Source: Ralstonia pickettii (GTDB lineage: Bacteria > Pseudomonadota > Gammaproteobacteria > Burkholderiales > Burkholderiaceae). Taken from it: DNA of 64,000 nucleotides. Made by a program: the position numbers and the translations under genes. Under the pieces are notes generated by a model. That model searched no databases. It was given only the letters and a program-made list of their open reading frames with translations, and was not told the DNA's origin. The DNA lies in assembly GCF_001699815.1 (NCBI RefSeq), contig NZ_MCGB01000097.1:62001-126000 (forward strand), read 5' to 3'. Shown in pieces: positions 11,422 to 42,509 of this stretch (position 1 is the stretch's first letter; every line of letters begins with the position of its first letter).

Positions 11422-11721
11422 TATTCTGAAACGGTTTGCCGCGTCTACGACGCATCGATTTTGACCGCCATCTGGGCGGCCTACATCTTGTTTCCCCCAC
11501 AGCTGTAGGGTCCGGTTTCATCTCCGACACTGCACGTGTCGGCCTATCGTTCGCATTCTGCGGCCGGTCTTTCCCTTGAACACCTGAGCGAACTTCGCTA
11601 CGTCGCGGTGTGCCTACGCACGCCGATTCGTTAGCGCTGGTCGGTCAGGTCGTTCCATCTTCTTCCCCGCTGGGAGCCGTCCCAGCAGGGACGTCTCTCG
11701 TCCATTTTCTGGAGACGTTCC
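11422..11721 (+). promoter_or_regulatory. Three-hairpin leader, copy 1 (methylase operon)
   Basis: A -10-like TATTCT at 11422-11427 lies 13 bp before hairpin 1 (GCGTC-tac-GACGC, 11441-11453) and ATCGA. Hairpin 2 is GCTGGGA/TCCCAGC at 11669-11686. Hairpin 3 pairs 11688-11697 with 11712-11721, ten pairs including one G-U. It covers the GGAGA ribosome binding site and touches the ATG. Spacing from hairpin 1 to the start (about 270 nt) is the longest of the set. Confidence 0.7.
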
Positions 11722-12096
11722 ATGTTCAACGCCGTTATTCAGCGTTTCAAAGAAGCACAGCTCAAAGCCTTCGAAAGCTACCTGGTGGTGGCTCGTTTCG
11801 AACAGGAGGCCTTGCCAATCCTCGATCCATCGTTGCGTGCAACGCGGATCAGGAAAGAAGCTGAGGTAACACACGAGTTCGAGCTGTTCTGTGTGCGAAT
11901 TGCACGTGCTGTTGTGGAGACTGTGCGCAGCAATGCTTCGACTAGTGTGGCATCGACTATCGATGTGGAATCGGAACTCCGGGTCGCTGAAGCCGACATC
12001 AAAGCCGCTCTGGCTATTGGCGCGGTCCCCGACATGGATGCCTTTTGCGCATCGCTGAACCAGCGCTTCAATGTGCGAGTTGGGGCTCTGCAATGA
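11722..12096 (+). CDS. Hypothetical protein co-operonic with the methylase-like gene (124 aa)
   Basis: A small soluble helical protein (FKEAQLKAFESYLVVARFE near the start) with no recognised domain. GGAGA lies upstream, inside hairpin 3 of the leader. The stop overlaps the next start (ATGA), so translation of the methylase-like protein is probably coupled to it. It may be a partner or regulator of that protein. Confidence 0.6.
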   Translation: MFNAVIQRFKEAQLKAFESYLVVARFEQEALPILDPSLRATRIRKEAEVTHEFELFCVRIARAVVETVRSNASTSVASTIDVESELRVAEADIKAALAIGAVPDMDAFCASLNQRFNVRVGALQ

Positions 12097-13025
12097 GCAG
12101 GGCAGCACAACGCCGGCACCTGGAGACCGCCGACGAACACCAAAAGGCCTTGGTCGATTTGATCAAGGCCTTCGGGTACCGTCACCGCGCAAGCGATGTG
12201 TTCTCCGACTTCGTTGAGATGTCCGCACTGAGCCTCAGCAATGCGGTCGATCTCGCTCAGCGAGACGGCCGAGAGGCTCGGTACATGGAGATCGTCAAGA
12301 AGTACACCAAAGAAGAAGTGGACCAGTTCCCGAAGATGCTTGGCCACCTCGTGCTCACTTACGAGCGCCGGATGACTGATGTCCTTCCCGGGTCGCCGGC
12401 GCCGGTCAGAGTCGCCGGTGGCTTTGGCGATGTGCTTGGTCACACCTACATGCTGCTTGAGCTGGGCAACGATAGGGCGGGGCAGTTTTTCACGCCCTAT
12501 TCGGTATCCAGCATGATGGCTGCGATGCAGGTCAATGACCATGATCCGGACGTCGCGGAACATGGCTTCATCACCGTGATGGAGCCAACCTGCGGCGCTG
12601 GTGGCATGGTGATCGCAATGGCGGAGGCTATGCATCAGGCGGGCCACAACTACCAGACGGCCATGCATGCAACGTGCATCGATATCGATCCACGGTGCGT
12701 ACACATGACGTATGTGCAGCTGGCCTTGCTCCATATCCCTGCGGTTGTCATCCTTGGCAACTCATTGATGCTTGAGGAGCGCGAGGTTTGGTACACACCA
12801 GCGCACGTGCTTGGCGGGTGGAACCGGAAACTGGCTGCGCGTGAGCGTAGCCAGGAAACCTCCCCGCCCGTTGATTCCGAACGCAATTTCGTGCCCGCAG
12901 AAATGGGTACGGTCCTGTCGATTCTGGAGGCGATTGAACCGCCGCAAGCGCCGGCCATCATTGAAGCGGTGCCGCAACAGCACGCTGAAATTGCCCGGCA
13001 ACGTGAGCAATTGTCGTTGTTCTAG
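12093..13025 (+). CDS. N6-adenine methylase-like protein without NPPY motif
   Basis: The start ATG overlaps the previous stop. Residues 130-143 (GQFFTPYSVSSMMA) and 163-180 (MEPTCGAGGMVIAMAE) match the substrate-entry helix and SAM-binding motif I of HsdM-type N6 methylases. CIDIDP at 195-200 is the acidic loop. The expected NPPY catalytic tetrapeptide is replaced by GNSL at 222-225. The protein is 310 residues, shorter than HsdM, and has no specificity subunit nearby. The SAM fold is clear. Catalysis on DNA is doubtful without NPPY, though related plasmid proteins with the same substitution exist as far as I recall. Confidence 0.8.
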   Translation: MSRAAQRRHLETADEHQKALVDLIKAFGYRHRASDVFSDFVEMSALSLSNAVDLAQRDGREARYMEIVKKYTKEEVDQFPKMLGHLVLTYERRMTDVLPGSPAPVRVAGGFGDVLGHTYMLLELGNDRAGQFFTPYSVSSMMAAMQVNDHDPDVAEHGFITVMEPTCGAGGMVIAMAEAMHQAGHNYQTAMHATCIDIDPRCVHMTYVQLALLHIPAVVILGNSLMLEEREVWYTPAHVLGGWNRKLAARERSQETSPPVDSERNFVPAEMGTVLSILEAIEPPQAPAIIEAVPQQHAEIARQREQLSLF

Positions 13026-13110
13026 GTTGGCCACTGGCCGGCCTCGCGCAAGAGCGGGTCCCCATCTGCGGAGGGGGATCCGCTGTCTGGCACCGCAGAC
13101 GTGTTTCCGG

Positions 13111-13291
13111 TATTCTCAAAGCTCACTCCGCGTCTTTGACGCATCGATCTCCTGATCGCAGGACGCGCAGCGTCTCGCGGTTGTCCGAGGGCCAGCGGTT
13201 CGGTGGCCCTCGCTTTCATTTTCCATCCCATCGGGAACCTGTTCCCGGTGCGGCAACGGGTTCCCCTTTTCCATCCCTGGAGAACCCACAA
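13111..13291 (+). promoter_or_regulatory. Three-hairpin leader, copy 2 (PRTRC operon)
   Basis: TATTCT at 13111-13116 is followed after 13 bp by hairpin 1 (GCGTC-ttt-GACGC, 13130-13142) and ATCGA. Hairpin 2 is CGGGAA-cctg-TTCCCG at 13232-13247. Hairpin 3 pairs GGGTTC (13258-13263) with GAACCC (13282-13287) and has GGAG at its 3' foot, four bases before the ATG of the ParB-like gene. Confidence 0.75.
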
Positions 13292-14956
13292 ATGCAAGAA
13301 AACCAACAGAGCGTCACCGTCAAACTCGGCCAAATCCGGCCGGGCAAGAACCCCCGGAAGTACTTCGATCCCGCGAAAATGGCGGAGATCACGGAGTCCA
13401 TCCGTGAGGATGGCGTAATTCAACCTGTACTGGTGCGCCCTCTTGAGGACGGCACCTACGAACTGGTCGCTGGCGAGCGCCGGTACCGTGGGGCGAAAGC
13501 TGCCTGCGGTGACGATTACGACATGCCCGTTGTCATCCGTGAGATGACGGAAGGGGAAGCGCGCCGGCTGGCGCTCATCGAGAACGTTCAGCGCGCCGAC
13601 ATGGCGCCGTCTGAAGAAGCCGTTGCGGCCGCGGACATCGTTGGGGACCTGAAAGGTGACCGCGATGAAGCTGCCCGCCAACTCGGCTGGCCGCGATCGA
13701 CCCTCGACCGCCGGCTGGCGCTAATGAACTGCAGTCCTGCGGTGCTGGACGCGCTGAACACGCGTTCCATCCAGCTTGGGCATGCCGAGCTGCTTGCGAC
13801 CCTGACGAAGGAAAAGCAGGACCTGTTCTTGCCGATCATTCTGCAAGAGAAAAAGACGGTGGCGGACCTCAAGAAGGCCATCGAACAAGCTGCCTGCAAC
13901 CTGAAGGACGCGATCTTCGACAAGAGCGAGTGTGCGACATGCGCGCACAACTCGGAATTGCAGTCGGTGATGTTTTCCGAGGCGATTTCCTCCGGTAGCT
14001 GTACCAACCCGACCTGCTACAAGGGCAAGACCGAGACGCAGCTGGAAGGTATCTCGTACGGCCTGAAGGACGAATACCCGGTTATCCGTATCGTCCGCGC
14101 TGGCGACAACCACACGCGCGTGCAATTGCAGGTGGAGGGACCGACGGGAGTCGGTGCCGAACAGGCGAAAGCATGTCACGGCTGCCAGAATTTCGGCGCC
14201 GCGGTGAGTGGTCTGCCGGACAGCCTGGGCAAGGTCTTCCGTGGTCAGTGTTTTGATCCGTCCTGCAATGCCAAGAAGGTTGCAGCGAGGATCAAGGCCG
14301 AGCGCGCTGAAGCGCCGTCTACTGTTAAGGGCCCCAAAGCCGCGCCGGCCAAGGAGGGCGCGGACAAGGGCGGAAAGGCCGAACACGCGGCCACGTCGAT
14401 TGCCGAGTCGGACAAGGTGAAGACCTACCGACAAGGGGTGTGGCGCAAGGCGCTACGCCGGGAGGTGGCGGCCAACGAAGCAACGGCCAACCACTATCTC
14501 CTCGCACTTTCGCTGTCCGGTCATGCACGCACCATCACCAGCGACAAGATGGGGACGCTCTTTGAACGGATCGCGGACGAGACCAGCTCTCCCACCGATC
14601 TCTCGAAGAACCTTATCTCTGTGGCCGGCCTGGCTACTGACAAGCGGCTCAATCTGACGATCTCGCTCGCGCTTGCCGCGATCGAAGGAATCGATGTGCC
14701 TGTCTTGACGTCGCTCTGCAAGTACCACGCGCTCGACCTGACCAAGCACTGGAACCTTCAGAAATCCAAGGATTTTCTGGAACTCCTGACCAAATCGGAG
14801 TTGAAGGCTCTCGCCGACGAGCTGGGCATGCGCAACGCGCTCGGCGATCGCTTTTCCAAGCTGTTCAACCAATCGAAGCTCGAAGTCATTGAGGCCCTCC
14901 TCAAGGTAGACGGGTTTGACTACACGGGCAAGGTGCCCAAGGTCTTGAAGTTCTGA
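13292..14956 (+). CDS. PRTRC system ParB family protein
   Basis: First gene of the PRTRC cassette (554 aa). Residues ~10-100 form the ParB/Spo0J nuclease-like N-domain: IRPGKNPRKYF, a GVIQPVLVRP strand, GERRYRGAKAA, and LIENVQRADMAP. A helix-turn-helix region follows (~115-160). The central part has several CxxC pairs (CATCAHN, CTNPTC, CHGCQN, CFDPSC) likely to bind zinc, a feature of this subfamily and not of ordinary ParB. A basic Ala/Lys linker precedes the helical C-terminal ~150 residues. No ParA is adjacent. It probably binds DNA and links the conjugation-like proteins downstream to it. Confidence 0.92.
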   Translation: MQENQQSVTVKLGQIRPGKNPRKYFDPAKMAEITESIREDGVIQPVLVRPLEDGTYELVAGERRYRGAKAACGDDYDMPVVIREMTEGEARRLALIENVQRADMAPSEEAVAAADIVGDLKGDRDEAARQLGWPRSTLDRRLALMNCSPAVLDALNTRSIQLGHAELLATLTKEKQDLFLPIILQEKKTVADLKKAIEQAACNLKDAIFDKSECATCAHNSELQSVMFSEAISSGSCTNPTCYKGKTETQLEGISYGLKDEYPVIRIVRAGDNHTRVQLQVEGPTGVGAEQAKACHGCQNFGAAVSGLPDSLGKVFRGQCFDPSCNAKKVAARIKAERAEAPSTVKGPKAAPAKEGADKGGKAEHAATSIAESDKVKTYRQGVWRKALRREVAANEATANHYLLALSLSGHARTITSDKMGTLFERIADETSSPTDLSKNLISVAGLATDKRLNLTISLALAAIEGIDVPVLTSLCKYHALDLTKHWNLQKSKDFLELLTKSELKALADELGMRNALGDRFSKLFNQSKLEVIEALLKVDGFDYTGKVPKVLKF

Positions 14957-15000
14957 CCACGCCTCGCTTCCCCATCCCATTCATTTTCAAGGAAATCCCT

Positions 15001-15486
15001 ATGTTTCAAGAACTGGTGCCGCTCGTGAAGGCGAGCGACAAGGTTGTTATCACCCTTTCAATGCAGGGTGACGAGATGACCGTGGTCGTCGCGCCGACCG
15101 TCAGCAAGCCGGACGACGCAGCCCTGGTTGCGCCGATTGCTCTGACGGCCACGCCGGCGGAGTTGGATGCTGAGTTTGCCAATGCGATCGGTGGTGTGAC
15201 GCAGGCCCGCCAGGGTCTCGCCGAACAGGTCGAGTCCACGAAGGCGGTGATTCAAGCGGCTACCGCTGCTCAGTCGAACAAGGCGACCAAGGCCCTCGCG
15301 ACATCCAATCGCGCCAATCCGAAGTTGCCGGCGCCCAAGTCGAAAGGCATGGACGACGACGATGACGATGGTGTGGTCGATGTTGAGGTCACTGAAACGA
15401 CGTCCGGTAGCACGAGTTCGTCAGCTAAAGATGCGCAAGGCGACAAAAAATCGTCTGGCACCTCCCTCGCTGATCTGCTCGGTTAA
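15001..15486 (+). CDS. PRTRC system protein E
   Basis: A 161-residue protein starting FQELVPLVKASDKVVITL, as in PRTRC protein E. A compact beta-rich N-terminal half is followed by an Ala-rich helical stretch and an acidic tail with a run of Asp (MDDDDDDG). The C-terminus ends in SGTSLADLLG. It lies 44 nt after the ParB-like gene, with AAGGAAA upstream. Biochemical role unknown. Confidence 0.85.
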   Translation: MFQELVPLVKASDKVVITLSMQGDEMTVVVAPTVSKPDDAALVAPIALTATPAELDAEFANAIGGVTQARQGLAEQVESTKAVIQAATAAQSNKATKALATSNRANPKLPAPKSKGMDDDDDDGVVDVEVTETTSGSTSSSAKDAQGDKKSSGTSLADLLG

Positions 15487-15495
15487 GGAGAAGCC

Positions 15496-15714
15496 ATGGC
15501 TATCACCATCAACACGGTCAAGCGCGAGTTTTCCTACAACGGCATGACGCTTGCCGATCCGGGAACGCAGTTCACTCCGGACCAAGTGCGCGACATGTAC
15601 ACCGCCCAGTATCCCGAACTCACCACGGCAGCCGTGGAGGGTCCGGAGTACAAGGGGGAAAACGCTGTGTACAAGTTCGTGCGTGCCGCGGGCGCAAAGG
15701 GCAACCATGCGTAA
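15496..15714 (+). CDS. PRTRC system protein C, ubiquitin-like
   Basis: A 72-residue beta-grasp protein. ITINTVKREFSYNGMTLADP and the YPELTTAAVEGP segment are typical of PRTRC protein C, the family described as prokaryotic ubiquitin-like (Prok_Ub) in comparative work by the Aravind group. The C-terminus reads FVRAAGAKG followed by NHA. There is no exposed Gly-Gly; the Gly is followed by three residues that would need removal before activation. The gene begins nine bases after protein E with AAGGAG upstream. It should be the modifier used by the E1-like, E2-like and JAMM proteins downstream. Confidence 0.88.
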   Translation: MAITINTVKREFSYNGMTLADPGTQFTPDQVRDMYTAQYPELTTAAVEGPEYKGENAVYKFVRAAGAKGNHA

Positions 15715-15925
15715 GCGCGATCTGATGAATGCGTTGGCCGATCCGGTCAGCATCAATGGAACTGAGAAACCGCCCGATAGGGCGGTTTTTCTACATGATG
15801 AGGAGGTGGAATCGTGTTGTTCGATTCTTGCCAAGGTTTATCAGGCTTCAGTGAAAGCCTCACCGGCGGGGCGGCATGTCGATTCGATTCCCCTGCCGGA
15901 CATAGAGCTGCCGATGGTTTTCTAA
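15707..15925 (+). CDS. Possible overlapping ORF (72 aa) between C and F
   Basis: An ATG overlaps the stop of protein C by 8 nt (ATGCGTAA). The frame encodes 72 residues and overlaps the first 37 codons of F in another frame. Composition is plausible but I know no family. Its codons 21-29 are formed by the terminator-like hairpin at 15767-15793. It may be only a translational bridge from C to F, or not expressed. Confidence 0.3.
   Translation: MRKRDLMNALADPVSINGTEKPPDRAVFLHDEEVESCCSILAKVYQASVKASPAGRHVDSIPLPDIELPMVF
15767..15793 (+). terminator. Intrinsic terminator-like hairpin inside the PRTRC operon
   Basis: Nine-pair stem AAACCGCCC / GGGCGGTTT with loop GATA and a following T-rich tract, between the C and F genes and just before the strong AGGAGGTGG ribosome binding site of F. 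It may attenuate transcription into F, B, A and ThiF. Confidence 0.6.
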
Positions 15926-16950: not shown

Positions 16951-16958
16951 GAGGCCCC

Positions 16959-17681: not shown

Positions 17682-17682
17682 A

Positions 17683-18324: not shown

Positions 18325-18329
18325 CCAAA

Positions 18330-19265: not shown

Positions 19266-19400
19266 ATATCCTGCCTTCTTATCTCGCGCTTCTCGCGCAT
19301 CGATTCCGCGCCACACGGTGCTACCAACAGGCCTTGCCACGTTCTTCGGGGCATCTTGGCTTTCATCCCACCGGGAACTCATTCCCGGTGCGGGCATGGG
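19266..19400 (+). promoter_or_regulatory. Three-hairpin leader, copy 3 (third hairpin lost)
   Basis: TATCCT at 19266-19271 is 13 bp before hairpin 1 at 19285-19297. There the fourth pair is C-G instead of T-A, a compensatory change, and the fifth pair is lost. ATCGA follows. Hairpin 2 is a perfect CACCGGGAA / TTCCCGGTG stem (19369-19390). No third hairpin or normal ATG follows. Confidence 0.6.
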
Positions 19401-24923: not shown

Positions 24924-25052
24924 TACGATGCCCTTGCTTTCCGCGTCTTAGGCGCATCGATTCACACCAGTCTTTGGCTGGTATCTCTTCTCCCCCCCTT
25001 ACGGGCCCTCACGCCCGTAGGTGTGATGGGCCCGTTTTTTTCGAGGCCCATC
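24924..25052 (+). promoter_or_regulatory. Three-hairpin leader, copy 4 (SlyB-like pseudogene)
   Basis: TACGAT at 24924-24929 is 13 bp before hairpin 1 (GCGTC-tta-GGCGC, 24943-24955; the fourth pair is a T-G wobble) and ATCGA. Hairpin 2 is ACGGGC/GCCCGT (25001-25018). Hairpin 3 is a perfect eight-pair GATGGGCC/GGCCCATC (25025-25052) that ends at the ATG. Confidence 0.7.
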
Positions 25053-25532
25053 ATGTTCAAGTCCTTTTTCTCCGCTGCTCTCGTCGCCTTCTGCGTTCTA
25101 GCATCTGGATGCGCTCTTCAATAGAGCTCGCCCGACGTCTACCGCGGCATGGAAGTCATGCGCCGCGGTGATGCCGAGCAGGTCACTGTTGTTCGCGTTC
25201 GCAATGTCACGATCACTGGTGACGATGGCTACATGTCCGCATCAAGCGGCATGCCCGGTCTCATCGGGGCAGGCATCAGCGCATTCCTCGGTGGCCGTTC
25301 CATCGGTAACGGCAATGGCCGCTATGTCGCCGGCGCAGTCTCCGGCGCCGTGGGCGGTGTGATCACGCAGCAAGTCTCCCAGGTGCTGAACAAGCGCCCG
25401 GGCGTAGAAGTCATCGTTCGCACGGATGCTGGGCGAACGTTGGTCGTTACCCAGGATGCCACGCAGCAGTTTGTGGCTCGGGAGCGTCTGTACATGATCT
25501 CCAGCGCGGCGGGCTTTCGCCTGACCCGCTGA
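25053..25532 (+). pseudogene. SlyB-like glycine-zipper lipoprotein interrupted by in-frame TAG
   Basis: A lipoprotein signal (hydrophobic stretch then LASGC) is followed at codon 24 (25122-25124) by TAG. The same frame then continues for 135 codons with SSPDVYRGMEV and a Gly-rich zipper (AGAVSGAVGGVITQ) typical of SlyB-type outer-membrane lipoproteins. A single CAG-to-TAG change would explain it. Without suppression the protein is lost; an internal ATG would give a product with no signal. The leader and promoter upstream remain intact. Confidence 0.75.
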
Positions 25533-26158: not shown

Positions 26159-26264
26159 GCGTCACCGACGCATCGAGCTTTGTCTGGCATGCCCAGACCA
26201 TACCCATCGCGGGACACCGTCCCGCTGGGGTTGGTGTACCGCACTCTTTCATAGGACACCAACG
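26159..26264 (+). promoter_or_regulatory. Three-hairpin leader, copy 5
   Basis: Hairpin 1 is GCGTC-acc-GACGC (26159-26171) with ATCGA. Hairpin 2 is GCGGGAC/GTCCCGC (26209-26225), extended by CCCA/TGGG. Hairpin 3 is TTGGTGT (26231-26237) with ACACCAA (26256-26262), two bases before the ATG. No clear -10 was found; a terminator-like stem lies just upstream. Confidence 0.65.
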
Positions 26265-26645
26265 ATGAAGATTCCTCAATCCTTTACCCGAAGCCGCTGC
26301 CCGTCGAACACGGCCGCCGGCGCAATCCTGCAACGTGATGCTTCACGCGTTCTGCGTCGCGTCGCCAATGACCTGGCGCTGCGTCAACGGGAATATTCGA
26401 TCCGCACGCGTCGCCAGCGTCGCCGCCTGGTCGACGTCTTCGCGCTGCACACCGACGCGCTGTACTTCGAAATCTCGCACGCGCCGGCGGACCCGAAGGT
26501 GTTGGTCCGCTATCGCACCTGCGCCGGCCGTCACGATCTTGGCGGCGGCCGCAACAACGCCGTCTGCCTGGAGTCGCTGGCATCGCCGGAAGGTTACAGC
26601 CAGCTTCTGGCCAACCTGCGATTCGTTGCCGGCCGCCGTGGCTAA
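26265..26645 (+). CDS. Basic hypothetical protein (126 aa)
   Basis: Arg-rich first half (RTRRQRRRLVDVF) and a mixed alpha/beta second half. It is the first gene behind leader copy 5 and is followed after 12 nt by a membrane protein gene. No family recognised. Confidence 0.5.
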   Translation: MKIPQSFTRSRCPSNTAAGAILQRDASRVLRRVANDLALRQREYSIRTRRQRRRLVDVFALHTDALYFEISHAPADPKVLVRYRTCAGRHDLGGGRNNAVCLESLASPEGYSQLLANLRFVAGRRG

Positions 26646-27884: not shown

Positions 27885-27977
27885 CAGTCATTGACGCCGC
27901 CGCATCACCATTTCATCCAACAACCCACGCGGGGTGCGTCCCCGATGGGGCACTCCGCGTACAACAAGGAGTTCTCC
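27885..27977 (+). promoter_or_regulatory. Degenerate leader, copy 9 (hairpins 2 and 3 kept)
   Basis: A decayed hairpin 1 (CAGTC-att-GACGC, 27885-27897) is followed by hairpin 2 CGGGG/CCCCG (27930-27944). Hairpin 3 pairs GGGGCACTCC (27947-27956) with GGAGTTCTCC (27968-27977) with one mismatch. It encloses the GGAG site and abuts the ATG. Confidence 0.55.
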
Positions 27978-28358
27978 ATGGGCCATCAAGTCGTCGGTGC
28001 CGGCTTGGCATCATTCCCAGCGGGCGTGACGATCGCCGTGCAGCTCTACACGGATATGCACGTCGCAGTTCATCTGCACGCGGCGGACGACGGTCTGCGC
28101 TATGCCTCGTTGTCCACCAACATCCGGCACGCTCCGCTCGCAGACGACGAGTTTGCATTTTCTTCGGGGCTGGTGCCGCAGGATATGTGCCAAGCACTGC
28201 TGCACACGGGCGCGTTTGCTGATACCGGGCGCGTCATTCGCAGCGGCTATGCGACGTTCCCCATCTGGCGCATTGCCGACGAGCAACTGATCGGCCAAGT
28301 CGTCGCGATGCGTGTCGACGCTGCTGCCGCGACAAAGAGGCGCCGCAAGTCGCACTGA
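27978..28358 (+). CDS. DUF4313-like plasmid protein (126 aa)
   Basis: The pattern VAVHLHAADDGLRYASLSTN, a short acidic loop, and DTGRVIRSGYATFPI resembles the DUF4313 proteins carried by conjugative plasmids. Function of that family is unknown. The start is set by GGAG inside hairpin 3. Confidence 0.5.
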   Translation: MGHQVVGAGLASFPAGVTIAVQLYTDMHVAVHLHAADDGLRYASLSTNIRHAPLADDEFAFSSGLVPQDMCQALLHTGAFADTGRVIRSGYATFPIWRIADEQLIGQVVAMRVDAAAATKRRRKSH

Positions 28359-28377: not shown

Positions 28378-28443
28378 TCCATCCCACCAGGGGCAATCGC
28401 CCCGGTGGGGCGCGTTGCCCCAGTCCTTATTGGAGCAACGTTC
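28378..28443 (+). promoter_or_regulatory. Partial leader, copy 10 (hairpins 2 and 3 only)
   Basis: Hairpin 2 is CCCACC-a-GGGG / CCCC-GGTGGG (28383-28409). Hairpin 3 is CGTTGC (28413-28418) with GCAACG (28435-28440) and holds GGAG at its 3' side, three bases before the ATG. No promoter or hairpin 1 is seen, so it probably acts inside a longer transcript. Confidence 0.55.
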
Positions 28444-29982
28444 ATGTACATCATCACCATCAACCATACGAAGACCGAGACCCGCACAACGATGGCCGGC
28501 GTCTTGGCCCTCCTGAACGCCGACAAATCGATTCCGCGCAAATTCACCGCGGACTCGTTCACTGTACATACCGTCGAAAATGGTCCAATCCCCGTCGTTG
28601 GTCTGCCACGCGGCCGAATCGGGCTGCGTCCCGACGGCACGGTGCACGAGATCCTCTTGCACGTGATCACCGAAGTCGAGCGGATCATCCTGAAACCGGA
28701 CGGCAAGCTGCTGCGGCCCTACGAGGTCAGCTTTGAATCCTGGGAAGCTGTCCTTGCCGCAAGCGCGCTGGCCTACGAGAGCGAATACCTGATCGATCCT
28801 GAACGCCTGAAGGAGGGCTCGCTTTTCTCGGAGTTCCAAGTCGAGAGTCCGCAGCGCTTCATCACGGACGAGCTACTTCGCCGGTTTGGCTTCGGAACAG
28901 GCGGGCCACACGCCTATCCGGGCGGAGGGGCGTGCAAGGGGCATGAATGGCACGTCGCCTACGCGCTACAACGTGGCGAGCGCGTCAAGGATTGCATCCT
29001 CAACTTCTACCGTCACACGAGCACGGCGATCCCTCACGGCTTGGAATGGCTGAACGCTCTCATTGAGTTCCCAGTGCTACGCGGCGCGCTGCCGGCGGAG
29101 ACGCTGCGGGACCTGTGTGATGTGCTCAGACGCGAGAAGATGGCGATGACCGAGCAAAACGTGTCGAAGCTGCTCGCCATCGTTCGGGCCTTGCCGGTCG
29201 GTAGCTCCTATATCGACATCGACGACGCGTTCTACGACGCGAAGATCCTCGGCCCACTCACGGCGCCGACACTTCAGCTCGCAGAGGGGCCTGACGCAGA
29301 GCCGCTTTCGCCGTTGGCCAAGCGCGTGACGGAGTGCGTCAACGAGAGCGTGTATGAGAAGACGGTGGCGCGGCTTCGGCAGGAGCGGGAGGACGGTAAC
29401 CTTTCGAAGCGCCGTTTCGAGCTGCAGATGATGATGGCCGAGCGCCAACGCAATTGCAGAAACTACCACTACGGCAACATGATTGCCTCGCTGTTGTTGG
29501 AGCGTAATGTCGCTGGGCTGCTCGAGATTCTGGACCAGCCCAACAACAAATCGAGCAAGCGCGCCATTCGTGAAGTCATCGGGGTCAACCTGCTGACGGT
29601 AACGGGAGCAGCGCGCCGGCGCGCCATCTTCAGCATGTGCGGGTTCGCCCAGCAGGAGCAGGACGTGTGGGAGCAGCATGCGGCCGAGGCCAAGGCGGAG
29701 AAGCGCCGCATTGAGGCCATGGAGCAGGCAAAGAAGACTGCTGAGTCGGTACGCTATTCCGTCGGCGGTGGGCAGGTCATGACCGGCAAGCAGTACGTCG
29801 ACCTGTGCATCGCGGAAGGCTTCTCGCAGATTGTTCCTTCGCGGCGCGGCAATGCTGTCAGCTACCTCTTCGTCGATCCGAAGCGCGACCTGGGCAGGCC
29901 ACTGAAGGTGAAGGACGGCACCCTGGACTATGCACGCGCTTGCTTGAGTACACCGGCAGAGCGTGTGCCGGCGTACGCCTGA
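28444..29982 (+). CDS. Hypothetical protein (512 aa) of plasmid type
   Basis: A beta-rich N-terminal ~90 residues (MYIITINHTKTETRTTM, then PRGRIGLRPDG) precedes a long helical domain with many Arg/Glu pairs (RLRQEREDGNLSKRRFELQM). No membrane helix or catalytic motif. It follows the DUF4313-like gene with its own partial leader. Confidence 0.55.
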   Translation: MYIITINHTKTETRTTMAGVLALLNADKSIPRKFTADSFTVHTVENGPIPVVGLPRGRIGLRPDGTVHEILLHVITEVERIILKPDGKLLRPYEVSFESWEAVLAASALAYESEYLIDPERLKEGSLFSEFQVESPQRFITDELLRRFGFGTGGPHAYPGGGACKGHEWHVAYALQRGERVKDCILNFYRHTSTAIPHGLEWLNALIEFPVLRGALPAETLRDLCDVLRREKMAMTEQNVSKLLAIVRALPVGSSYIDIDDAFYDAKILGPLTAPTLQLAEGPDAEPLSPLAKRVTECVNESVYEKTVARLRQEREDGNLSKRRFELQMMMAERQRNCRNYHYGNMIASLLLERNVAGLLEILDQPNNKSSKRAIREVIGVNLLTVTGAARRRAIFSMCGFAQQEQDVWEQHAAEAKAEKRRIEAMEQAKKTAESVRYSVGGGQVMTGKQYVDLCIAEGFSQIVPSRRGNAVSYLFVDPKRDLGRPLKVKDGTLDYARACLSTPAERVPAYA

Positions 29983-30148: not shown

Positions 30149-30262
30149 GCGTCTCCGACGCATCGATCCAACGCCGGCAGCATCGGCCGTTTCTTCAACC
30201 ATCCCACAGGGGTCTACTCCCTGTGGGCGTGGATTCCGTGGGTTTTCGTCAAGTGATACCCC
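30149..30262 (+). promoter_or_regulatory. Three-hairpin leader, copy 6 (MoxR operon)
   Basis: Hairpin 1 is GCGTC-tcc-GACGC (30149-30161) with ATCGA. Hairpin 2 is a perfect nine-pair CCCACAGGG/CCCTGTGGG (30203-30227). A weaker third stem pairs GGGT near 30240 with ACCC near 30258, just before the ATG. The rest of 29983-30148 has no gene. Confidence 0.7.
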
Positions 30263-31327
30263 ATGGACAATACCCTTACCGATCAAGTTACGCCCCTCAC
30301 CAATCAGGTTTCCCCGTCGCAACTGGAGACCCTGTTGGCTGCCTACATTCCGGCACACCTGCCCGTGCTCGTGACTGGCGCGCCAGGTGTCGGGAAATCC
30401 GACATCGCAGCCGCGGCTGCAGAGCGCGCCGGCTACGACCTGCTGATCTCGCATCCGGTGGTCGAGGACCCGACAGACTCCAAGGGCCTGCCGTTCCCCG
30501 GCGCGGATGGCCAATCCGCCAGGTTCCTGCCGTTCGGGGATCTGGAGAGGGTGTTACACGCGAAAGAGCCGTTGGTCTGGTTCTTCGACGACCTCGGTCA
30601 AGCGTCTCAGGCGGTTCAAGCCGCCAAGATGCAACTGCTGCTCGCGCGCCGCATCGGCGAGCACAAGCTTCCCGAGCATGTGACGTTCTTGGCGGCGACG
30701 AATCGCCGGACCGACAACGCCGGCGTGTCTGGCATTCTCGATCCGGTGAAGTCGCGGTTTGCGACCATCGTCGAGCTTGTGCCAAACGTTGATGCCTGGG
30801 CGGCATGGGCTGTGAAGTCGCAGCTTCCCGCTGAACTGATCGCGTTCCTGCGCTTCAAGCCGGATCTGCTGGTGGCGAAGGAGCGCACGCGTGATATCGA
30901 GAACCTGCCGTCGCCGCGAGGCTGGGGCGCGGTTGGGAAGCAGATGCCCGTGGTGCCAGCTGGCTTGGAAGCAATCGTGTTCACCGGTGCTGTCGGCGCT
31001 GGTGCCGCGACCGAGTTCCAGGCGTTTCGCGAGACCTTTCGCAGTCTCCCCTCTGTGGCAAGCGTTCTGTTTGCGCCGGACACTGCCTCCATCCCGGAGG
31101 AGCCCTCGGCGCGCATCGGGATTGCGACGGCAGTTGCGAGTCAAACCACGGTCGCGAACATCGATCGCGTCCTCGTCTACGCCGACCGCATGCAAGCGGG
31201 CGGTGACGGTGACTGCGCAACGATGATGATCAGCGACGCGATCCGCCGTGACGAGTCTATCGTTTCCGTGCCGGCTTTCATTGCAGCGCAATCCGGCTGG
31301 ATCGGTGCCGCGATGGACGGCCGGTAA
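30263..31327 (+). CDS. MoxR-type AAA+ ATPase
   Basis: 354 aa. Walker A GAPGVGKS (39-46), Walker B WFFDD (~112), and ATNRR as sensor 1 (~149). The ATPase core is followed by a helical lid. MoxR ATPases work with VWA-domain proteins to remodel or load metals onto target complexes. Here a VWA/metallopeptidase protein is two genes downstream, so the partner assignment is strong. Substrate unknown. Confidence 0.85.
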   Translation: MDNTLTDQVTPLTNQVSPSQLETLLAAYIPAHLPVLVTGAPGVGKSDIAAAAAERAGYDLLISHPVVEDPTDSKGLPFPGADGQSARFLPFGDLERVLHAKEPLVWFFDDLGQASQAVQAAKMQLLLARRIGEHKLPEHVTFLAATNRRTDNAGVSGILDPVKSRFATIVELVPNVDAWAAWAVKSQLPAELIAFLRFKPDLLVAKERTRDIENLPSPRGWGAVGKQMPVVPAGLEAIVFTGAVGAGAATEFQAFRETFRSLPSVASVLFAPDTASIPEEPSARIGIATAVASQTTVANIDRVLVYADRMQAGGDGDCATMMISDAIRRDESIVSVPAFIAAQSGWIGAAMDGR

Positions 31328-33554: not shown

Positions 33555-33558
33555 CCAT

Positions 33559-36659: not shown

Positions 36660-36669
36660 GGTTTGCTCC

Positions 36670-37350: not shown

Positions 37351-37543
37351 GGCTCTCTCCAGCGGTTGGGGTGAGGGGGGCGCCTGAGAGGTCGTTTATT
37401 CGGTCCGCGATGCCTTCGCGCGGGACGACAATCCCCTCTGGCCTTCGTACCGGCCACTGTTTCGGGCGCCGTGTTGGCTGCTAGGTCGGATATGGCGCCA
37501 TGCCGGCTGCCATCCCGATGGGTGCGTTGGGTGGTGTGGTTGG

Positions 37544-38131
37544 CTATCCCGCAGGGGTGTCGCCGTCTTGTGCGCCGTCAGCAGCGAAACGGTCGTTGTC
37601 GGGGATGCAGCTCTGGTGGATTGAAGCGATCTTGCTGCCGGCCACTTTCATCGTGCCCTCGAATTCGAGCGCCGATATGGAGTTGGCGACGCGGGCGAAG
37701 ATGGCGAGCGCGAACAGCCTGTCGTGCTGGTTCAGGAGGCGAATGAGGCGCCCAGACAGCGGATGTGTGACCTGGACCTCAACGGTATCGGTCTCGATGG
37801 GGATGGGGGTTTGGCTTTTGTTCGCGTGCCACGCGATGGCTTTTTCGAACCAAAGCTCGGCTTCGCGGAATTTTTCGTCGAGCGCTCGGGTCTTGCCTGA
37901 CCTGGCGACTGAGAACTTGGAAGAGCAGAAGTTGTACGCGGAGCGCAGGAAATCGCGAACGTACACAGAGGAATAGGTGACTTGAGCACTGGCGGCCGTC
38001 TCGGGGACGATCCGCTTAATCCTGTTTTCTCCGACCAGCCGCGCGATCGGCTTGAGTCCGGAGTTGGATGTACTCGGCTGTGGCGCGCCTAATGGCGCCT
38101 CAAGTTCCTGGGGGTGTTGGGCAGCGACCAT
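37544..38131 (-). CDS. AcaB/DUF1845-like conjugative-element protein
   Basis: 195 aa. RDFLRSAYNFCSSK and SGRLIRLLNQHDRLFALAI resemble the family of integrative-element proteins related to AcaB (DUF1845). The match is partial and by eye. If correct it supports an ICE or conjugative plasmid origin for the region. Confidence 0.4.
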   Translation of the reverse strand: MVAAQHPQELEAPLGAPQPSTSNSGLKPIARLVGENRIKRIVPETAASAQVTYSSVYVRDFLRSAYNFCSSKFSVARSGKTRALDEKFREAELWFEKAIAWHANKSQTPIPIETDTVEVQVTHPLSGRLIRLLNQHDRLFALAIFARVANSISALEFEGTMKVAGSKIASIHQSCIPDNDRFAADGAQDGDTPAG

Positions 38132-38251
38132 GGTTCATGTGTGGTATCTCATCTCTCACTCGAAATTTTCCGGCACGTGAACACGGTGGCTGCTTACAAA
38201 AGCCACGCTATTTTGGCGAGCTTTCCGGGATTCCTAATGGATTGTCTGGTG

Positions 38252-38390
38252 CATACTGCAATCACTCCTCGCGTCATCGACGCATCGAACTGACTCCCTA
38301 GCGAGTCCATCTCCTTAAAAAAGTCGTGCCTTGCGCATGCGCCGACCAGTTGGCAACTGGTGTGGAAATCCCCCCTTGTGATGAGTGCTT
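38252..38390 (+). promoter_or_regulatory. Orphan three-hairpin leader, copy 7
   Basis: CATACT at 38252-38257 is 13 bp before hairpin 1 (GCGTC-atc-GACGC, 38271-38283) and ATCGA. A stem ACCAGTT/AACTGGT lies near 38346-38362. At the place where a gene would start only ATG-AGT-GCT-TAG is found. Confidence 0.6.
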
Positions 38391-38700
38391 AGCCAGACAC
38401 TCCCCATCTATCAGCCGTAATACGCGTTCCCGTGTGTATGACCCTAGGTCATGCCTGTGAACACCGTCTGAGCCCCGGAAATGTGTGGTCTCTCTCTCCA
38501 GCGCCTCCGGGTGCAGGACGGTTGTCGTCGACTGATCCGTGAACCTGCGGTGGACGAAAGTCCTAAATGGGTTGTTGTGCGGCGTGAACATGCTGCACGA
38601 GAACGACTTTACGTTCTCCCCCCTGAGCGAAGTGCATTGGCACGACGCTCCCTGTGAGCCACGCCCCCGAAAGGGGCGTGGCAGCAGGTTTCTCACAAGA
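38391..38700 (+). ncRNA. Possible non-coding transcript behind orphan leader
   Basis: No protein-like frame on the plus strand from the leader to the terminator at 38701. A perfect stem CCACGCCCC/GGGGCGTGG (38656-38678) lies near its 3' end. A minus-strand 132-codon frame exists but has poor composition. It may be a structured RNA or the remains of a lost gene. Confidence 0.35.
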
Positions 38701-38734
38701 AGCCCGCTTCCGGTTACCGGAGCGGGCTTTTTTT
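38701..38734 (+). terminator. Strong Rho-independent terminator
   Basis: AGCCCGCT / AGCGGGCT outer stem with an inner CCGG/CCGG stem, then six T. Confidence 0.9.
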
Positions 38735-38771
38735 GCTTTTAAGTGAGAGACCCCACACGGAGGAGCTGACC

Positions 38772-39089
38772 ATGGCACTCGAAATGACGTTGCAATCCCA
38801 GATCAAGGCGCAGATCGCCGAACTGATCCACGCCCGTCGACCGAAGTACAAGGACCAGCCGTACAGCTGGAAAAATTTTTGCGAGGCGGCGCACGTTGCC
38901 AGCCTTTCCGACGCCGCGCGAGCGGCATATCTCAACGAAGTAACGACCCAACGCGGGGCCGACGCCGCCCTGCATCTTGGGGACCGTGCTGAGACCCTTC
39001 GTTCCAAAGTCGTTCAGTACCTGAACAACAGGAGCGTTTCATGCACGCAATCCCAACCCACCCAGGCTTCGCGACCCCGCGCAGCATAA
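38772..39089 (+). CDS. Hypothetical protein (105 aa)
   Basis: CGGAGGAGC upstream sets the start. A soluble helical protein (QIKAQIAELIHARRPKY) whose last 16 codons overlap the start of the RDF-like gene. Probably co-translated with it. No family recognised. Confidence 0.55.
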   Translation: MALEMTLQSQIKAQIAELIHARRPKYKDQPYSWKNFCEAAHVASLSDAARAAYLNEVTTQRGADAALHLGDRAETLRSKVVQYLNNRSVSCTQSQPTQASRPRAA

Positions 39090-40318
39090 TTGAGGAGCGG
39101 CCCCTGCGGCCGCCCGTCATTGGAAAGATCCGCCCTGGCATCAAGGTCCTCACCAAGAAGGCCAGGGAGAATCCCCAAGCCGTCCAGATTCACGACGCGC
39201 TTCTCGCCCAAGGGCTCTCGTTCGAGGACATCGGTTCCGAGATCGAACGAAAAACCGGCCTGAGCTACGCCCTCATCCCCCGCAATACGCCGTACTTCAC
39301 GTGTCGTGGCAGTGATTTCACGAATCCTGCCATCGCGGAAGAGATCCTGACCCGATACGGGGAGGATCGCGGTGACGGCCTCAAGCTCTGGCGCTTTCCG
39401 GTCGTCTTTGCGTTCGACGACTGGTTGCGCAACATCCCCAACGAGCTGGCGGTATTCAACGGCACGGGAAAGGTGTTCTGGTCGCAGTACGGGGCGGATG
39501 GTCTTCGTCAATGCAAGACGTACGCACCTGTCGAGCGCAGTGACCGCGCCAGGCGTGCAAAGCGCATCTTCGGCGGCCGCACCATCATCCTGCGCCAGGA
39601 CGACGCCATTCCCGATGGCGTATGCGACCCGCAGGTCTGCCCGCAATACCAGGACCGACACTGCAACCTCACGGCCAGCTTCCTATTTGCGATCCTTGAC
39701 ATTCGAGGCCTTGGCTTGATTGAGTTGCCCACCAATTCGATCTACGTCCTGCAGAAGGCCCATGCGGCCATGCAGACTGTGGCGATTGCGCGCGGCGGCC
39801 GTCTGGTCGGCACCAGGTTCTGGCTCTCCAAGCAGGAAGTGGAGATTTCCCGCATCGACGATAACGGCTTGCCGGTACGCCAGAAACAATGGCTCACCAC
39901 GCTGGATGCCGAAATCGACCTGGGCGCGCTGCTGGATGGCGCTGACCATATTGGTGCTGCGATCGAGGTGGGTACGCAGACGGTTGCCCTGCTGGAGCAC
40001 CCGACGACCGAGCCGGCCGCCACTGCCACGCCAACGTCAGGCGAGGAGGGTGGTCAGCCAGGAGCGCAGAGCGAGCCGCCTGTCGGCGGCTCTATCGCCG
40101 AGCAGTTTGAACGTCTCATCGTGGCGCTGGGCATGGAGGGGCAGGAAACGCGCGAGCATTTGCGCGTGTACGCACACTCCAAGTTTGGCAAGGGCTGGAC
40201 CAAGCGCGAGCAGGACATGCGAGCGCTGATCGATGAGATGGGTGTGGCTCTCGTGTCTCCTCCCGCCTTCCGCGAGAAGGTGAAAGCGGAGTTCGATGGC
40301 AGTCTGTTCTCAGCTTGA
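39041..40318 (+). CDS. Gp3-like recombination directionality factor family protein
   Basis: 425 aa with AGGAG upstream. GKIRPGIKVL (~28-37), a PYFTCRGSD strand and a later CDPQVCPQYQDRHC cysteine cluster match the Gp3-like/RDF-related family, also annotated as hydrolase or metal-binding proteins on plasmids. The last ~80 residues are an extra helical domain after an Ala/Gly linker. Family members help control phage integrases; here no cognate integrase is adjacent, so the role is uncertain. Confidence 0.55.
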   Translation: MHAIPTHPGFATPRSIIEERPLRPPVIGKIRPGIKVLTKKARENPQAVQIHDALLAQGLSFEDIGSEIERKTGLSYALIPRNTPYFTCRGSDFTNPAIAEEILTRYGEDRGDGLKLWRFPVVFAFDDWLRNIPNELAVFNGTGKVFWSQYGADGLRQCKTYAPVERSDRARRAKRIFGGRTIILRQDDAIPDGVCDPQVCPQYQDRHCNLTASFLFAILDIRGLGLIELPTNSIYVLQKAHAAMQTVAIARGGRLVGTRFWLSKQEVEISRIDDNGLPVRQKQWLTTLDAEIDLGALLDGADHIGAAIEVGTQTVALLEHPTTEPAATATPTSGEEGGQPGAQSEPPVGGSIAEQFERLIVALGMEGQETREHLRVYAHSKFGKGWTKREQDMRALIDEMGVALVSPPAFREKVKAEFDGSLFSA

Positions 40319-40357
40319 CCTGCGCCGGCTTGGCGCCTGGTCGTAGCATCAACGTGC

Positions 40358-40390
40358 GGCGTCGAGAGTTCCCCCGACGCCGTTTTTCTT
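40358..40390 (+). terminator. Rho-independent terminator
   Basis: GGCGTCG / CGACGCC stem with a ten-base loop and five T, just after the RDF-like gene. Confidence 0.75.
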
Positions 40391-40439
40391 TTCTGTTGCT
40401 GTGACCGTTCTGGTTGCGGCTATTCCATAGGAGGTGAGC

Positions 40440-41852
40440 ATGCCCAACGATGGCGAAAGCCTTCACGTGGGTCATTTTTCCGACCTGCACTATTCGACTG
40501 AGCGGTTGGTGGAAGCGGACCGATGCTTCGGTTTCGCCGTGGAAGATGCGGTCGCGCGTGGTTGCCATGTGGGTATCGTTTCCGGTGACGCAACCGATCA
40601 TCGGCTCGACGCGCACACGCCGGCACTGCGGGTGCTTGCCGAGCGCATTCATGCGCTGTCGGGCCACATGCCGGTCCTCATGCTGCAGGGGACCTTCTCG
40701 CATGAGCCGCCGGGCACGCTGGACCTGTTCCGGCTGATCGGTAGCCGCCACCCCGTCTACGTCGCCGATCGCATTCACCAGGTTGCGCTCGTCGGATCGA
40801 CGTTCCTGCCATCGGCCGGCCCGCTGTTCACCGTCGAAGAGCTGGAAACGCTGCTGCAGGAGGGCACACCCTCTGCTGTGTTCACCTGCGTTCCGACCGT
40901 CAACAAGGCTGTGCTGGCGGGCATCGTGGGCGCCATGGATGCGGCAACCGCGGTGGGCGAGCATCTGACGGTATTCCTGGGTGCCGCCGGCAAGGTGAAT
41001 CGGCTGTTGCGGTCCAAAGGCATCCGAACCATCGGTGTGTCGCATGGAACGGTCAATGGCTGCTACACCGAGCACGGCGTACCGATGGCCGGGTTCGACC
41101 ATGAGTTCTCGCTCGGCGCGCTGTTCGAAGCCGAGTGCGATGCCTTCATGCTGGGACATATCCATGCGATGCAGTTGTGGGAACGCGAAGGCCGGCTGGT
41201 CGGTTACGCCGGTTCCATCGGGTGCTTCCACTACGGCGAAAAGGGCAAGAAGGGCTACCTGAGCTGGCAGATCAAGCCGGGCCGGGCCGAAGCGGTGCAG
41301 GTGGAAACGCCGGCGCGCGAAACGGTCTGTGTCGATTTCGACGGCCCGCCGGATATGGAGCGCCTGGCCAACATCGCCGAGCAAACGCAGGACAAGTTCG
41401 TGCGCGTTCGCTGGACCATTGACGAGGAGCATCGCCAGCTGGTCGACCGCGAGGCCATCCGCACGCTGTTCGCCGGCGCCGCGGAGCTGAAGCTGGATCC
41501 GCGTGTGTTGCCTGCCGTCAGAAGCCGTGCGGAGGGCATCAGCCGCGCGGCGACTCTCGGTGAGAAGGTTCAGCGTTGGTGCGGTTTGACCGACGTGAAG
41601 CCGGACGCGTTGCTGGAGCGCCTGTCCATCCTGGAGGCACTGGAGCCGCAAGACATCGCGGATCGAGTGGTCGCCTCGTTGGAGAGCGGGTCTGCTGCCG
41701 ACAACGGTGAAACGGTGGCGTCCGCCACGGCTGAGCCGGTGACAGTTCAGCCGGCCTGGCAGGACGCTGACCAAGTTCAGAACCAATCGTCGTTGGATTG
41801 GCTGACCGATGACCTTTTCGCGGCAGATGCCGCCCAACCCTTGAACGTGTGA
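40440..41852 (+). CDS. Mre11/SbcD-like metallophosphoesterase
   Basis: 470 aa; ATG at 40440 lies five bases after GGAGG. Motifs of the calcineurin-like fold: DLH (15-17), GD (~48), GHIH (~238). The usual GNH(D/E) motif reads GTFSHE, so the metal-bridging Asn is replaced by Thr. A C-terminal helical region and an acidic tail follow. The Rad50-like ATPase is encoded one gene downstream. It would process DNA ends, if the altered motif still supports catalysis. Confidence 0.78.
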   Translation: MPNDGESLHVGHFSDLHYSTERLVEADRCFGFAVEDAVARGCHVGIVSGDATDHRLDAHTPALRVLAERIHALSGHMPVLMLQGTFSHEPPGTLDLFRLIGSRHPVYVADRIHQVALVGSTFLPSAGPLFTVEELETLLQEGTPSAVFTCVPTVNKAVLAGIVGAMDAATAVGEHLTVFLGAAGKVNRLLRSKGIRTIGVSHGTVNGCYTEHGVPMAGFDHEFSLGALFEAECDAFMLGHIHAMQLWEREGRLVGYAGSIGCFHYGEKGKKGYLSWQIKPGRAEAVQVETPARETVCVDFDGPPDMERLANIAEQTQDKFVRVRWTIDEEHRQLVDREAIRTLFAGAAELKLDPRVLPAVRSRAEGISRAATLGEKVQRWCGLTDVKPDALLERLSILEALEPQDIADRVVASLESGSAADNGETVASATAEPVTVQPAWQDADQVQNQSSLDWLTDDLFAADAAQPLNV

Positions 41853-41898
41853 GCCACGTTCCGACAGCCTTCGGGGCTGTCGAAACTCGGTTTTCCCC

Positions 41899-41996
41899 GC
41901 GTCTACGACGCATCGACCAGCAGTACCTATTCCTTTGAACCCGGACGGGCGCACAACCCGTTGGGGATGCGCTTCGCCCAATTTTTGGAGTGCATC
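41899..41996 (+). promoter_or_regulatory. Three-hairpin leader, copy 8 (Rad50-like operon)
   Basis: Hairpin 1 is GCGTC-tac-GACGC (41899-41911) with ATCGA. A second stem (CGGACGGG with CCCGTTGG, imperfect) follows near 41942-41964. Hairpin 3 pairs GATGCGCT (41966-41973) with AGTGCATC (41989-41996), eight pairs with one G-U. It overlaps GGAG and ends at the ATG. Confidence 0.7.
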
Positions 41997-42509
41997 ATGA
42001 TTCTCTATCCCGCAGGTTCCCAGTGGACCCGTTGCTTTGAAGCCGATCTGCCGGCCTCCGAGTTGGCCGCGCGGTTGGTGGGCAAGCACGAATTCACTCG
42101 TGCGATGCTGTTCCAGCCGTTCGGTCATGGTCGTGGCGCGGTGATCGCCACGCGCGGCCACATGCTCGTCATGGCTGTCGAAACGGACGGTGAGCGCACG
42201 GTTTTTACCGTGGCGCCCACGGTCCAGGTGCAGAACCTTCTGTGGTCCCTCTCCAACGGCTACACCAGCCAGTGGAGTGAGGCTGAACTCAAGGCCTTGA
42301 CCGCATGCACCACCTTTCCGGAGGTGCTTGACCTGGCACGGACGCAATTTTTCGCGGCCGTGCGTTCGTTCGAGCGCGCACTAGCCGGCAAGCCGGAAGT
42401 CGACGTCGTCGTCACGTATGACGACTCGCGTGAGGTGCTGGAGATCCCCGGCGACTACTACATGACTGGCTTCAGCGGTGAGGGGGCACCATGCGACCTC
42501 TCAAACTGA
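41997..42509 (+). CDS. Hypothetical protein upstream of Rad50-like gene (170 aa)
   Basis: Soluble alpha/beta protein with no recognised domain. Its last six codons overlap the Rad50-like start. It lies between the Mre11-like and Rad50-like genes and may be a third subunit. Confidence 0.6.
   Translation: MILYPAGSQWTRCFEADLPASELAARLVGKHEFTRAMLFQPFGHGRGAVIATRGHMLVMAVETDGERTVFTVAPTVQVQNLLWSLSNGYTSQWSEAELKALTACTTFPEVLDLARTQFFAAVRSFERALAGKPEVDVVVTYDDSREVLEIPGDYYMTGFSGEGAPCDLSN

Follow-up and report, generated by a model that had tools for sequence, protein, structure and literature searches.

RNA leaders with a candidate three-strand start-codon switch on a probable PRTRC-type plasmid of Ralstonia pickettii

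Introduction

How might many operons of one mobile element be held under a common translational control? The question is raised by a 64,000-nucleotide (nt) stretch of Ralstonia pickettii DNA, here called the window, in which eight copies of a small hairpin (hairpin 1, hp1) recur in leaders of the element's genes. The window is the minus strand of positions 248757-312756 of a 336,372-base contig, in a genome of 5.36 Mb and three contigs. Much of its gene order is common to the Cupriavidus plasmids pMOL28 and pHG1, and part of it to B. ambifaria pBMC401; because of this match to relatives, the contig is probably a PRTRC-type plasmid. An excerpt of an earlier report describes a backbone common to pMOL28 and pHG1 (PMC2864759).

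The answer favored here, with a probability of about 0.6, is element-wide translational control by RNA leaders that carry a three-strand start-codon switch, closed in the full-length messenger RNA (mRNA). Each leader would have two parts, a 5′ part with hp1 and a 3′ start-codon switch. The 5′ part would consist of hp1 (GCnnn, a loop of about 3 nt, n′n′n′GC), AUCGA and then a second, sometimes terminator-like hairpin (hp2); the transcript is inferred to start about 6 nt before hp1, except where hp1 follows an intergenic hairpin instead. The switch would be built from six alternating blocks: a (CCC), b (GGGnnC), b′ (CCC), a′ (GGG), x (GnnCCC) and the Shine-Dalgarno (SD) arm (GGAGnnC). In the closed register, a:a′ and b:b′ would form one hairpin (hp3) and x would lie over the SD, giving low translation; in the open register, b would pair with x, with b′:a′ nested inside, leaving the SD free. 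Nascent mRNA would be open for a time, until the SD arm has been transcribed, and would then close, a fuse-like form of control, while hp1 would receive an element-wide signal. The competing strand b is the main new point, and is absent from an earlier note on this DNA that had proposed a family of translationally acting leaders from the sequence alone.

Results

A strand that competes with the Shine-Dalgarno arm

Among 40 folded leaders, from the window and eight plasmids, most give hp1, hp2, hp3 and an SD hairpin, with window modules I and J lacking hp1. Hp3 has the layout CCC (a), GGGnnC, loop, CCC, GGGG, and the strand x that covers the SD also fits GGGnnC (b). Strands b, x and SD read GGGAACC, GGTTCCC and GGAGAACC before ParB, GGGACC, GGTCCC and GGAGACC before the Robbsia ParB gene, and GGGCAAT, ATTGCCC and GAGGCAAT in B. 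cepacia. The fit of b to x is specific to the gene. Across the 40 leaders, in 12 gene groups, b fits its own x with a score of 16.1, versus 11.8 ± 0.6 for swapped partners, and 0 of 100,000 permutations reached the natural value. Adding 40 of 79 further entries gave 80 leaders in 19 protein families, for which the corresponding scores are 15.8 and 12.2 ± 0.5 (0 of 100,000), with the own score above the mean of the others in 16 of the 19 families; matches lacking a start or hp3 were dropped, among them sbcD, SSB-type and some DUF932 leaders. Where x was set from the SD alone, in 17 families, the fit was 13.8 versus 10.9 ± 0.5 (0 of 100,000), and 13 of the 17 families exceeded their swaps. Protein families served as the groups in the last two comparisons; grouping by leader sequence chained 78 of the 80 leaders into one group and was discarded.

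The module is also concentrated at start codons. A scanner for the three strands was applied to annotated plus-strand starts of eight plasmid regions, together with 23 listed window starts. Of the 47 starts with hp1 upstream, 30 passed, versus 0.65 expected by shuffling; of the 224 without it, 27 passed (1.8 expected), and among 96 minus-strand genes in the same regions none did; the window modules that pass this strict scanner are A, B, E, H, I and J. On more distant PRTRC plasmids, 2 of 178 starts passed. Under a uniform start definition, hp1-bearing plasmid loci had the module at 106 of their 1058 distinct starts, versus 3 of 402 on chromosomal contigs from seven genomes; the distant PRTRC plasmids gave 5 of 375. 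P. putida pTTS12 gave 0 of 30 starts. Inspection by eye picked out three genuine-looking modules without hp1 on Xanthomonas PRTRC plasmids (L025 10341 and 11156; L081 27529), and on a Piscinibacter plasmid a JAB-domain (RadC-like) gene and the gene next to it are preceded by genuine-looking modules (L019 12754-, 13056-).

The hp1 family and its promoter spacing

All eight hairpins described in the earlier note are present with ATCGA directly 3′, the copy placed at 19285 in fact starting at 19286. The sequence CGCGTCTNNGACGCATCGAT, allowing up to three mismatches, recovers seven of the eight, all on the plus strand (shuffles averaged 0.17, and 0 of 100 reached seven); the eighth, at 19286, is GCGCTTCTCGCGC-ATCGA, with a C-G fourth pair and a broken fifth pair. 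Six copies have T-A as the fourth pair and the copy at 24943 has T-G, as had been claimed, and the five -10-like boxes that had been seen before hp1 all end 13 base pairs upstream of it (TANNNT at 11441, 13130, 19286 and 24943; CATACT at 38271). A GC stem followed by an SD-enclosing stem, attributed to the family as a whole, is predicted for six copies (11441, 13130, 24943, 26159, 30149 and 41899) but not for 19285 and 38271; no SD hairpin or gene start was recognized downstream of 19285. The loci at 27885 and 28383 do keep just these two downstream stems, without hp1.

Hp1 recurs at matching genes of the relatives, with eight copies on pMOL28 (one variant included), six on pHG1 and eight on pBMC401; ten control tails gave 0 to 3 each per locus. 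Matches inside genes or on the other strand (window 12665 and 18457; locus L011 14663 and 18309; L012 18886) were set aside as chance. The stems differ with pairing kept (GCGTC, GCGCC, GCCTG, GCTCG), and the covariation first suspected from the window copies extends to two-sided changes at four of the five pairs across 51 aligned copies, with a score of 0.260 versus 0.084 for shuffled alignments. Most of the 51 rows came from a scan that demanded pairing, so the 99.6% pairing among them is by construction; the control-tail comparison is free of that bias.

A covariance model built from hp1 (R1) was run on 397 genomes of the host family: 292 had a match at E ≤ 0.01, many of them one or two weak ones, and 76 had five copies or more, with scoring limited to 19 candidates per genome. 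When the order was sampled more widely, 2 of 399 genomes matched at E ≤ 1e-7, both of the same family. Of 77 R1 matches on nine named plasmids, 75 run in the direction that prevails on their plasmid. On distant PRTRC plasmid regions of Piscinibacter, Sulfuricystis, Polaromonas, Rhodoferax, Methylomonas and Xanthomonas, a scan for the hp1 stem found none and R1 matches were weak (best E 0.007); the four matches on viral contigs did not look like leaders by eye. Scans of the window and of related sequences gave no Rfam family that matches hp1.

Many copies lie at a fixed distance from a promoter-like box. In 42 of 96 distinct copies, a TANNNT box ends 12-14 nt upstream of hp1 (35 at 13 nt, 6 at 14 nt and 1 at 12 nt), and the whole range of 17 to 46 nt upstream has just four. 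At the -10 place, several sbcD-type copies have CACAAT, GATACT or similar; most remaining copies are preceded by a hairpin, in some cases one with a T-tract, and by eye they look intercistronic. Promoter-type copies have a GAGCTTT-like box about 45-54 nt upstream of hp1 (for example L015 16127 and L013 8777), and no TTGACA was seen by eye upstream of the -10; the shared box hints at a common activator. A short form of the leader (L009 7117-, L013 4829, L018 4627) has stems GCCTG/CAGGC and GTCCG/TGGAC, then ATCGACC and the SD almost at once, without hp3. Start sites on pMOL28 have been mapped by tagRNA-seq, according to an excerpt of PMC7563307.

Predicted folding of nascent and complete leaders

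In predicted folds of the full hp3-to-start region of the 80 leaders, x is opposite the SD side in 73 and hp3 is present in 77. The mean b:x pairing probability is 0.40 before the SD arm is made (above 0.5 in 33 of the 80) and 0.04 in full leaders. In chimeric leaders, the b:x probability is 0.06, and the natural leaders are higher in 48 of 80 leaders and in 13 of 17 families (p = 0.0013). Because b:x pairing comes early in these predicted folds, nascent RNA could be briefly open. Hp2 is followed by at least five T in 9 nt in 25 of 61 leaders, and x by at least six T in 9 nt in 11 of 80 leaders, from 3 of 17 families; in the minority with a T-tract after x, the modeled b:x hairpin could serve as a transcription terminator.

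A related module downstream of radC RNA

radC RNA sits in the leaders of DNA-handling genes. The window leaders occupy the same kind of position, since they precede ParB, a small gene before an N6 methylase and, for copy H, the gene preceding the SbcC-like one. The earlier note had remarked on a resemblance to this RNA. As a claim of identity the resemblance is ruled out: the Rfam radC model (RF01754) has no match in the window at its gathering cut-off (40 bits), and none in 11000-43000 even at E ≤ 5. Conversely, R1 found nothing convincing on 38 radC-bearing loci (best E 0.026). As a lead the resemblance proved useful. The Piscinibacter module before a RadC-like gene was the reason for examining true radC RNAs.

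The Rfam model gave four copies, all in one of 274 genomes of the class. A first radC core pattern had no matches; a second found 101 stretches in genome contigs, of which 80 were listed, and the genera among the matches listed include Pseudomonas, Stutzerimonas, Thauera and Acidovorax, along with Bordetella hinzii. Four radC-like plasmid regions were fetched, and all three annotated ones lie among genes of integrative and conjugative elements (ICEs). When 18 of the 101 loci were scored with Rfam, radC exceeded the cut-off in all 18, with 30 copies. At the first start after these 30 RNAs, the module was found in 27 by a relaxed scanner and in 5 by the strict one. The relaxed scanner also passed 66 of 67 distinct pattern-found radC leaders, counting any start in 60-260 nt, and the strict scanner 3 of 51 radC leaders (0.9 expected). 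The strict scanner misses most radC leaders because many of their hp3 loops are longer, as in CCCCAGGAGGGTTTGCCCTCCAGGGGCAGGCGCCCTCC...GGAGGTTCGCCATG before radC, where the leader ends in the same arrangement. The relaxed scanner was written after such leaders had been seen, which makes 27 of 30 and 66 of 67 post hoc figures; it passes 3 of 402 chromosomal starts and 145 of 1014 of all starts on radC-bearing loci. The 30 leaders are also non-independent, belonging to five gene families (RadC 8, STY4534-like 9 and three others), one of which passes in just 2 of 5. From these comparisons, the hp1 and radC 5′ domains differ and the 3′ module appears to be common to both. An excerpt of the 2010 survey that describes radC RNA gives it no known function (PMC2864571).

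sbcD RNA

The window sbcD RNA starts 273 nt downstream of hp1 copy G (38271), and it is the sole match when known families, metabolite riboswitches included, are searched in the window at gathering cut-offs. It exceeds the cut-off in 69 of the 397 family genomes, all within the 76 rich in hp1, and in 0 of the other 321; 7 of the 76 lack it over the cut-off, and one further genome has a match below the cut-off. It occurs on 8 of the 9 named plasmids, and all nine sbcD copies in the scanned loci have hp1 upstream on the same strand. sbcD RNA seems to belong to the same regulon as the leaders, which themselves do not match its model (RF01757). At 38271-38691, the Rfam sbcD RNA may form the 3′ portion of a longer RNA beginning at the hp1 leader some 270 nt upstream; by eye, the stretch between looks conserved and hairpin-rich in several plasmids.

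Gene setting and features of the window

PRTRC genes in the window are ParB (13292), E (15001), F (15814), B (16959) and ThiF (18243); others encode a DUF2201 VWA protein and an SbcC-like ATPase (42491). A Tn3-family transposase gene (45311-48241) lies directly downstream of the SbcC-like gene. After copy D, the reading frame 25053-25124 meets an in-frame stop (TAG) once 23 codons have been read, shortly beyond a lipobox-like signal, and relatives read on; the frame looks broken or truncated.

Table 1. Leader copies, candidate switch modules and sbcD RNA, in window coordinates.
Feature	Positions	Strand	Details
Copy A, 5′ part	11422-11458	+	-10-like TATTCT 11422-11427; hp1 11441-11453; ATCGA
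Copy A, putative switch	11672-11724	+	b..b′ 11672-11683; x 11688-11698 (GGGACGTCTCT); SD arm GGAGACG; ATG 11722
Copy B (PRTRC ParB), 5′ part	13111-13147	+	-10-like TATTCT; hp1 13130-13142; ATCGA
Copy B, putative switch	13233-13294	+	b GGGAACC; x GGGTTCCCC (13258-13266); SD arm GGAGAACCC; ATG 13292
Copy C	19267-19303	+	-10-like TATCCT 19267-19272; variant hp1 19286-19298; ATCGA
Copy D, 5′ part	24924-24960	+	-10-like TACGAT; hp1 24943-24955 (T-G fourth pair); ATCGA
Copy D, putative switch	25003-25055	+	b GGGCCC; x 25023-25032, then T-tract; SD-side arm GGCCCATC; ATG 25053
Copy E, 5′ part	26159-26176	+	hp1 and ATCGA; upstream hairpin, no -10 seen
Copy E, putative switch	26211-26267	+	b GGGACACC; x GTTGGTGT (26230-26237); SD-side arm ACACCAAC; ATG 26265
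Module I, putative switch without hp1	27931-27980	+	b GGGGTGC; x GGGGCACTCC; SD arm GGAGTTCTCC; ATG 27978
Module J, putative switch without hp1	28390-28446	+	b GGGGCAAT; x GCGTTGCCCCAG; SD arm TTGGAGCAACGT; ATG 28444
Copy F (AAA ATPase)	30149-30265	+	hp1, hp2, hp3 (b..b′ 30209-30221); diverged start-codon hairpin; ATG 30263; fails strict scanner
Copy G	38252-38288	+	-10-like CATACT; hp1 38271-38283; ATCGA; leads to sbcD RNA
sbcD RNA (RF01757)	38544-38691	+	139.7 bits
Copy H, 5′ part	41899-41916	+	hp1 and ATCGA; upstream hairpin, no -10 seen
Copy H, putative switch	41947-41999	+	b GGGCGCA; x GATGCGCTTCG (41966-41976); SD arm TGGAGTGCATC; ATG 41997

Discussion

The case for a start-codon switch

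As features of the sequences, the covariation of hp1, the family-specific fit of b, x and the SD, and the enrichment of the module at starts in two kinds of mobile element are established by these comparisons. The earlier proposal of cis-regulatory leaders acting on translation is likewise supported by comparison, in that hp1 covaries, stands at a constant spacing from the -10 in roughly half of its copies and is found again on related plasmids, and in that the SD belongs to a conserved module with alternative pairings. From this we infer that the leaders would switch in the cell, that nascent mRNA would pass from open to closed, and that hp1 would act as the receiver of a signal.

Several observations weigh against this interpretation. 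Three of the 19 families, and 4 of the 17 with x set from the SD, do not beat their swaps; the part of b after GGG is weaker when taken alone, with 515 of 100,000 permutations reaching it; and the position of hp3 in the 80 leaders was assigned by eye. The strict scanner fails 17 of the 47 starts preceded by hp1, and the switch is absent from two of the eight window copies. The open state is a median of 8.1 kcal/mol worse in the hp3-to-start region, and an input is therefore needed to open it, while three leaders (window B, window I and pHG1 E) are predicted to be open at the full hp3-to-start length, of which window B folds closed once more upstream sequence is included. Freeing the SD is predicted to cost less in natural than in chimeric leaders in 47 of 80 leaders and 11 of 17 families, a difference that is not significant (p = 0.095), and the SD opening energy is just modestly above that of other starts (median 10.6 versus 7.7, n = 36 and 213, p = 0.001).

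Those energies are what would be expected if the SD hairpin (hairpin 4) did nothing more than lower translation, the likeness of b to the SD arm having arisen by duplication of a hairpin with no switching. The stability of x:SD, far above that of b:x in most full leaders, and the chimera test both favor such static occlusion; b and x nevertheless fit each other within gene families of diverged sequence, and predicted nascent b:x pairing is strong just in the natural combinations, which makes static occlusion unlikely in our view. The T-tracts after hp2 and x, and the intercistronic hp1 copies that follow a hairpin with a T-tract, raise a slightly more doubtful alternative, namely transcription attenuation in which b:x or hp2 would be a terminator, the competing hairpin an antiterminator, and hp1 would decide between the two, for instance by signaling processive antitermination. 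The T-tract after x is confined to few families, however, and x faces the SD side in nearly all of the predicted folds. An RNA thermometer, or translational coupling to the upstream gene, would likewise place the SD in a hairpin, and some modules are intercistronic; the stems are GC-rich, however, and the conserved b:x pairing would be left unexplained by either, and we regard both as highly improbable.

Kor operators of IncP plasmids offer a precedent for reading hp1 as a DNA operator bound by a plasmid repressor, and hp1 is palindromic, lies at a fixed distance from the -10 in many copies and is repeated at many operons. Against this, the stem sequence changes with pairing kept, the ATCGA flank is asymmetric, lying on the 3′ side in the aligned copies, and a large group of hp1 copies has no promoter; little credence can be given to an operator. 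Alternatively, sbcD RNA might pair in trans with arm a (CCCA) and open the switch, a proposal that is compatible with the start-codon switch favored here and draws on the confinement of sbcD to hp1-rich genomes and on a largely conserved single-stranded UGGG segment in sbcD. That co-occurrence may reflect no more than one shared backbone, however, and is imperfect among the hp1-rich genomes; no matching change was seen in the leaders where sbcD reads GGGCUG or GGGCCG, two of nine sbcD copies read AAGGG, and sbcD and the leaders showed no covariation. A role for sbcD in trans is very unlikely.

Implications of a shared module

A wider reading of the start-codon switch, which we offer tentatively and hold to be improbable on balance, is that PRTRC megaplasmids and radC-bearing ICEs run many core genes through a common metastable three-strand fuse, open on new mRNA only, each kind of element with its own 5′ sensor (hp1 or radC RNA) and with its core genes answering one signal. 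If true, this would explain what radC RNA controls. Should the switch operate in living cells, both megaplasmids and ICEs would have a means of keeping translation of many backbone genes low while leaving them ready to respond together. What is gained in either case is a leader family without an Rfam match, an explicit switch logic that can be tested by a few point mutants, and a direct way to test the role of radC RNA. The leaders are of a familiar kind, cis-regulatory RNA; no description of them was found in the titles and abstract openings listed from the open-access literature. Overlap with the Burkholderiales-1 motif is possible; an excerpt of Weinberg 2010 lists that motif in a table without an Rfam accession (PMC2864571).

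Comparison with known systems

An IncP Kor-type operator is an invariant DNA sequence, and hp1 is not. The closer parallels are with RNA. In the rep mRNA of IncI-alpha, IncB and IncL/M plasmids, the hairpin that sequesters the SD opens once its 5′ arm is captured by a hairpin upstream, and the leaders likewise have an SD hairpin whose 5′ arm also fits an upstream hairpin. They differ from rep in that a whole hp3 arm would shift register and in that a single plasmid has the device at many of its genes. The hok mRNA is a case of metastable folding, in which the nascent fold differs from the finished fold, as is predicted for the leaders; unlike in hok, the nascent state of the leaders would be the open one, and neither a toxin nor 3′-end processing is implied. 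STAXI (RF01728), which has no Rfam match in the window, is also a repeated RNA element near DNA-handling genes, but consists of tandem pseudoknots, according to an excerpt of the survey (PMC2864571). sbcD RNA shares with the leaders its plasmids and an upstream hp1, and differs in being an Rfam-annotated small RNA of another structure that lies downstream of an hp1 leader. radC RNA resembles the window leaders in forming the leader of a mobile-element gene, followed in most Rfam-scored copies by a b-x-SD module at the next start; it differs in its 149-nt radC domain, which is absent from 11000-43000.

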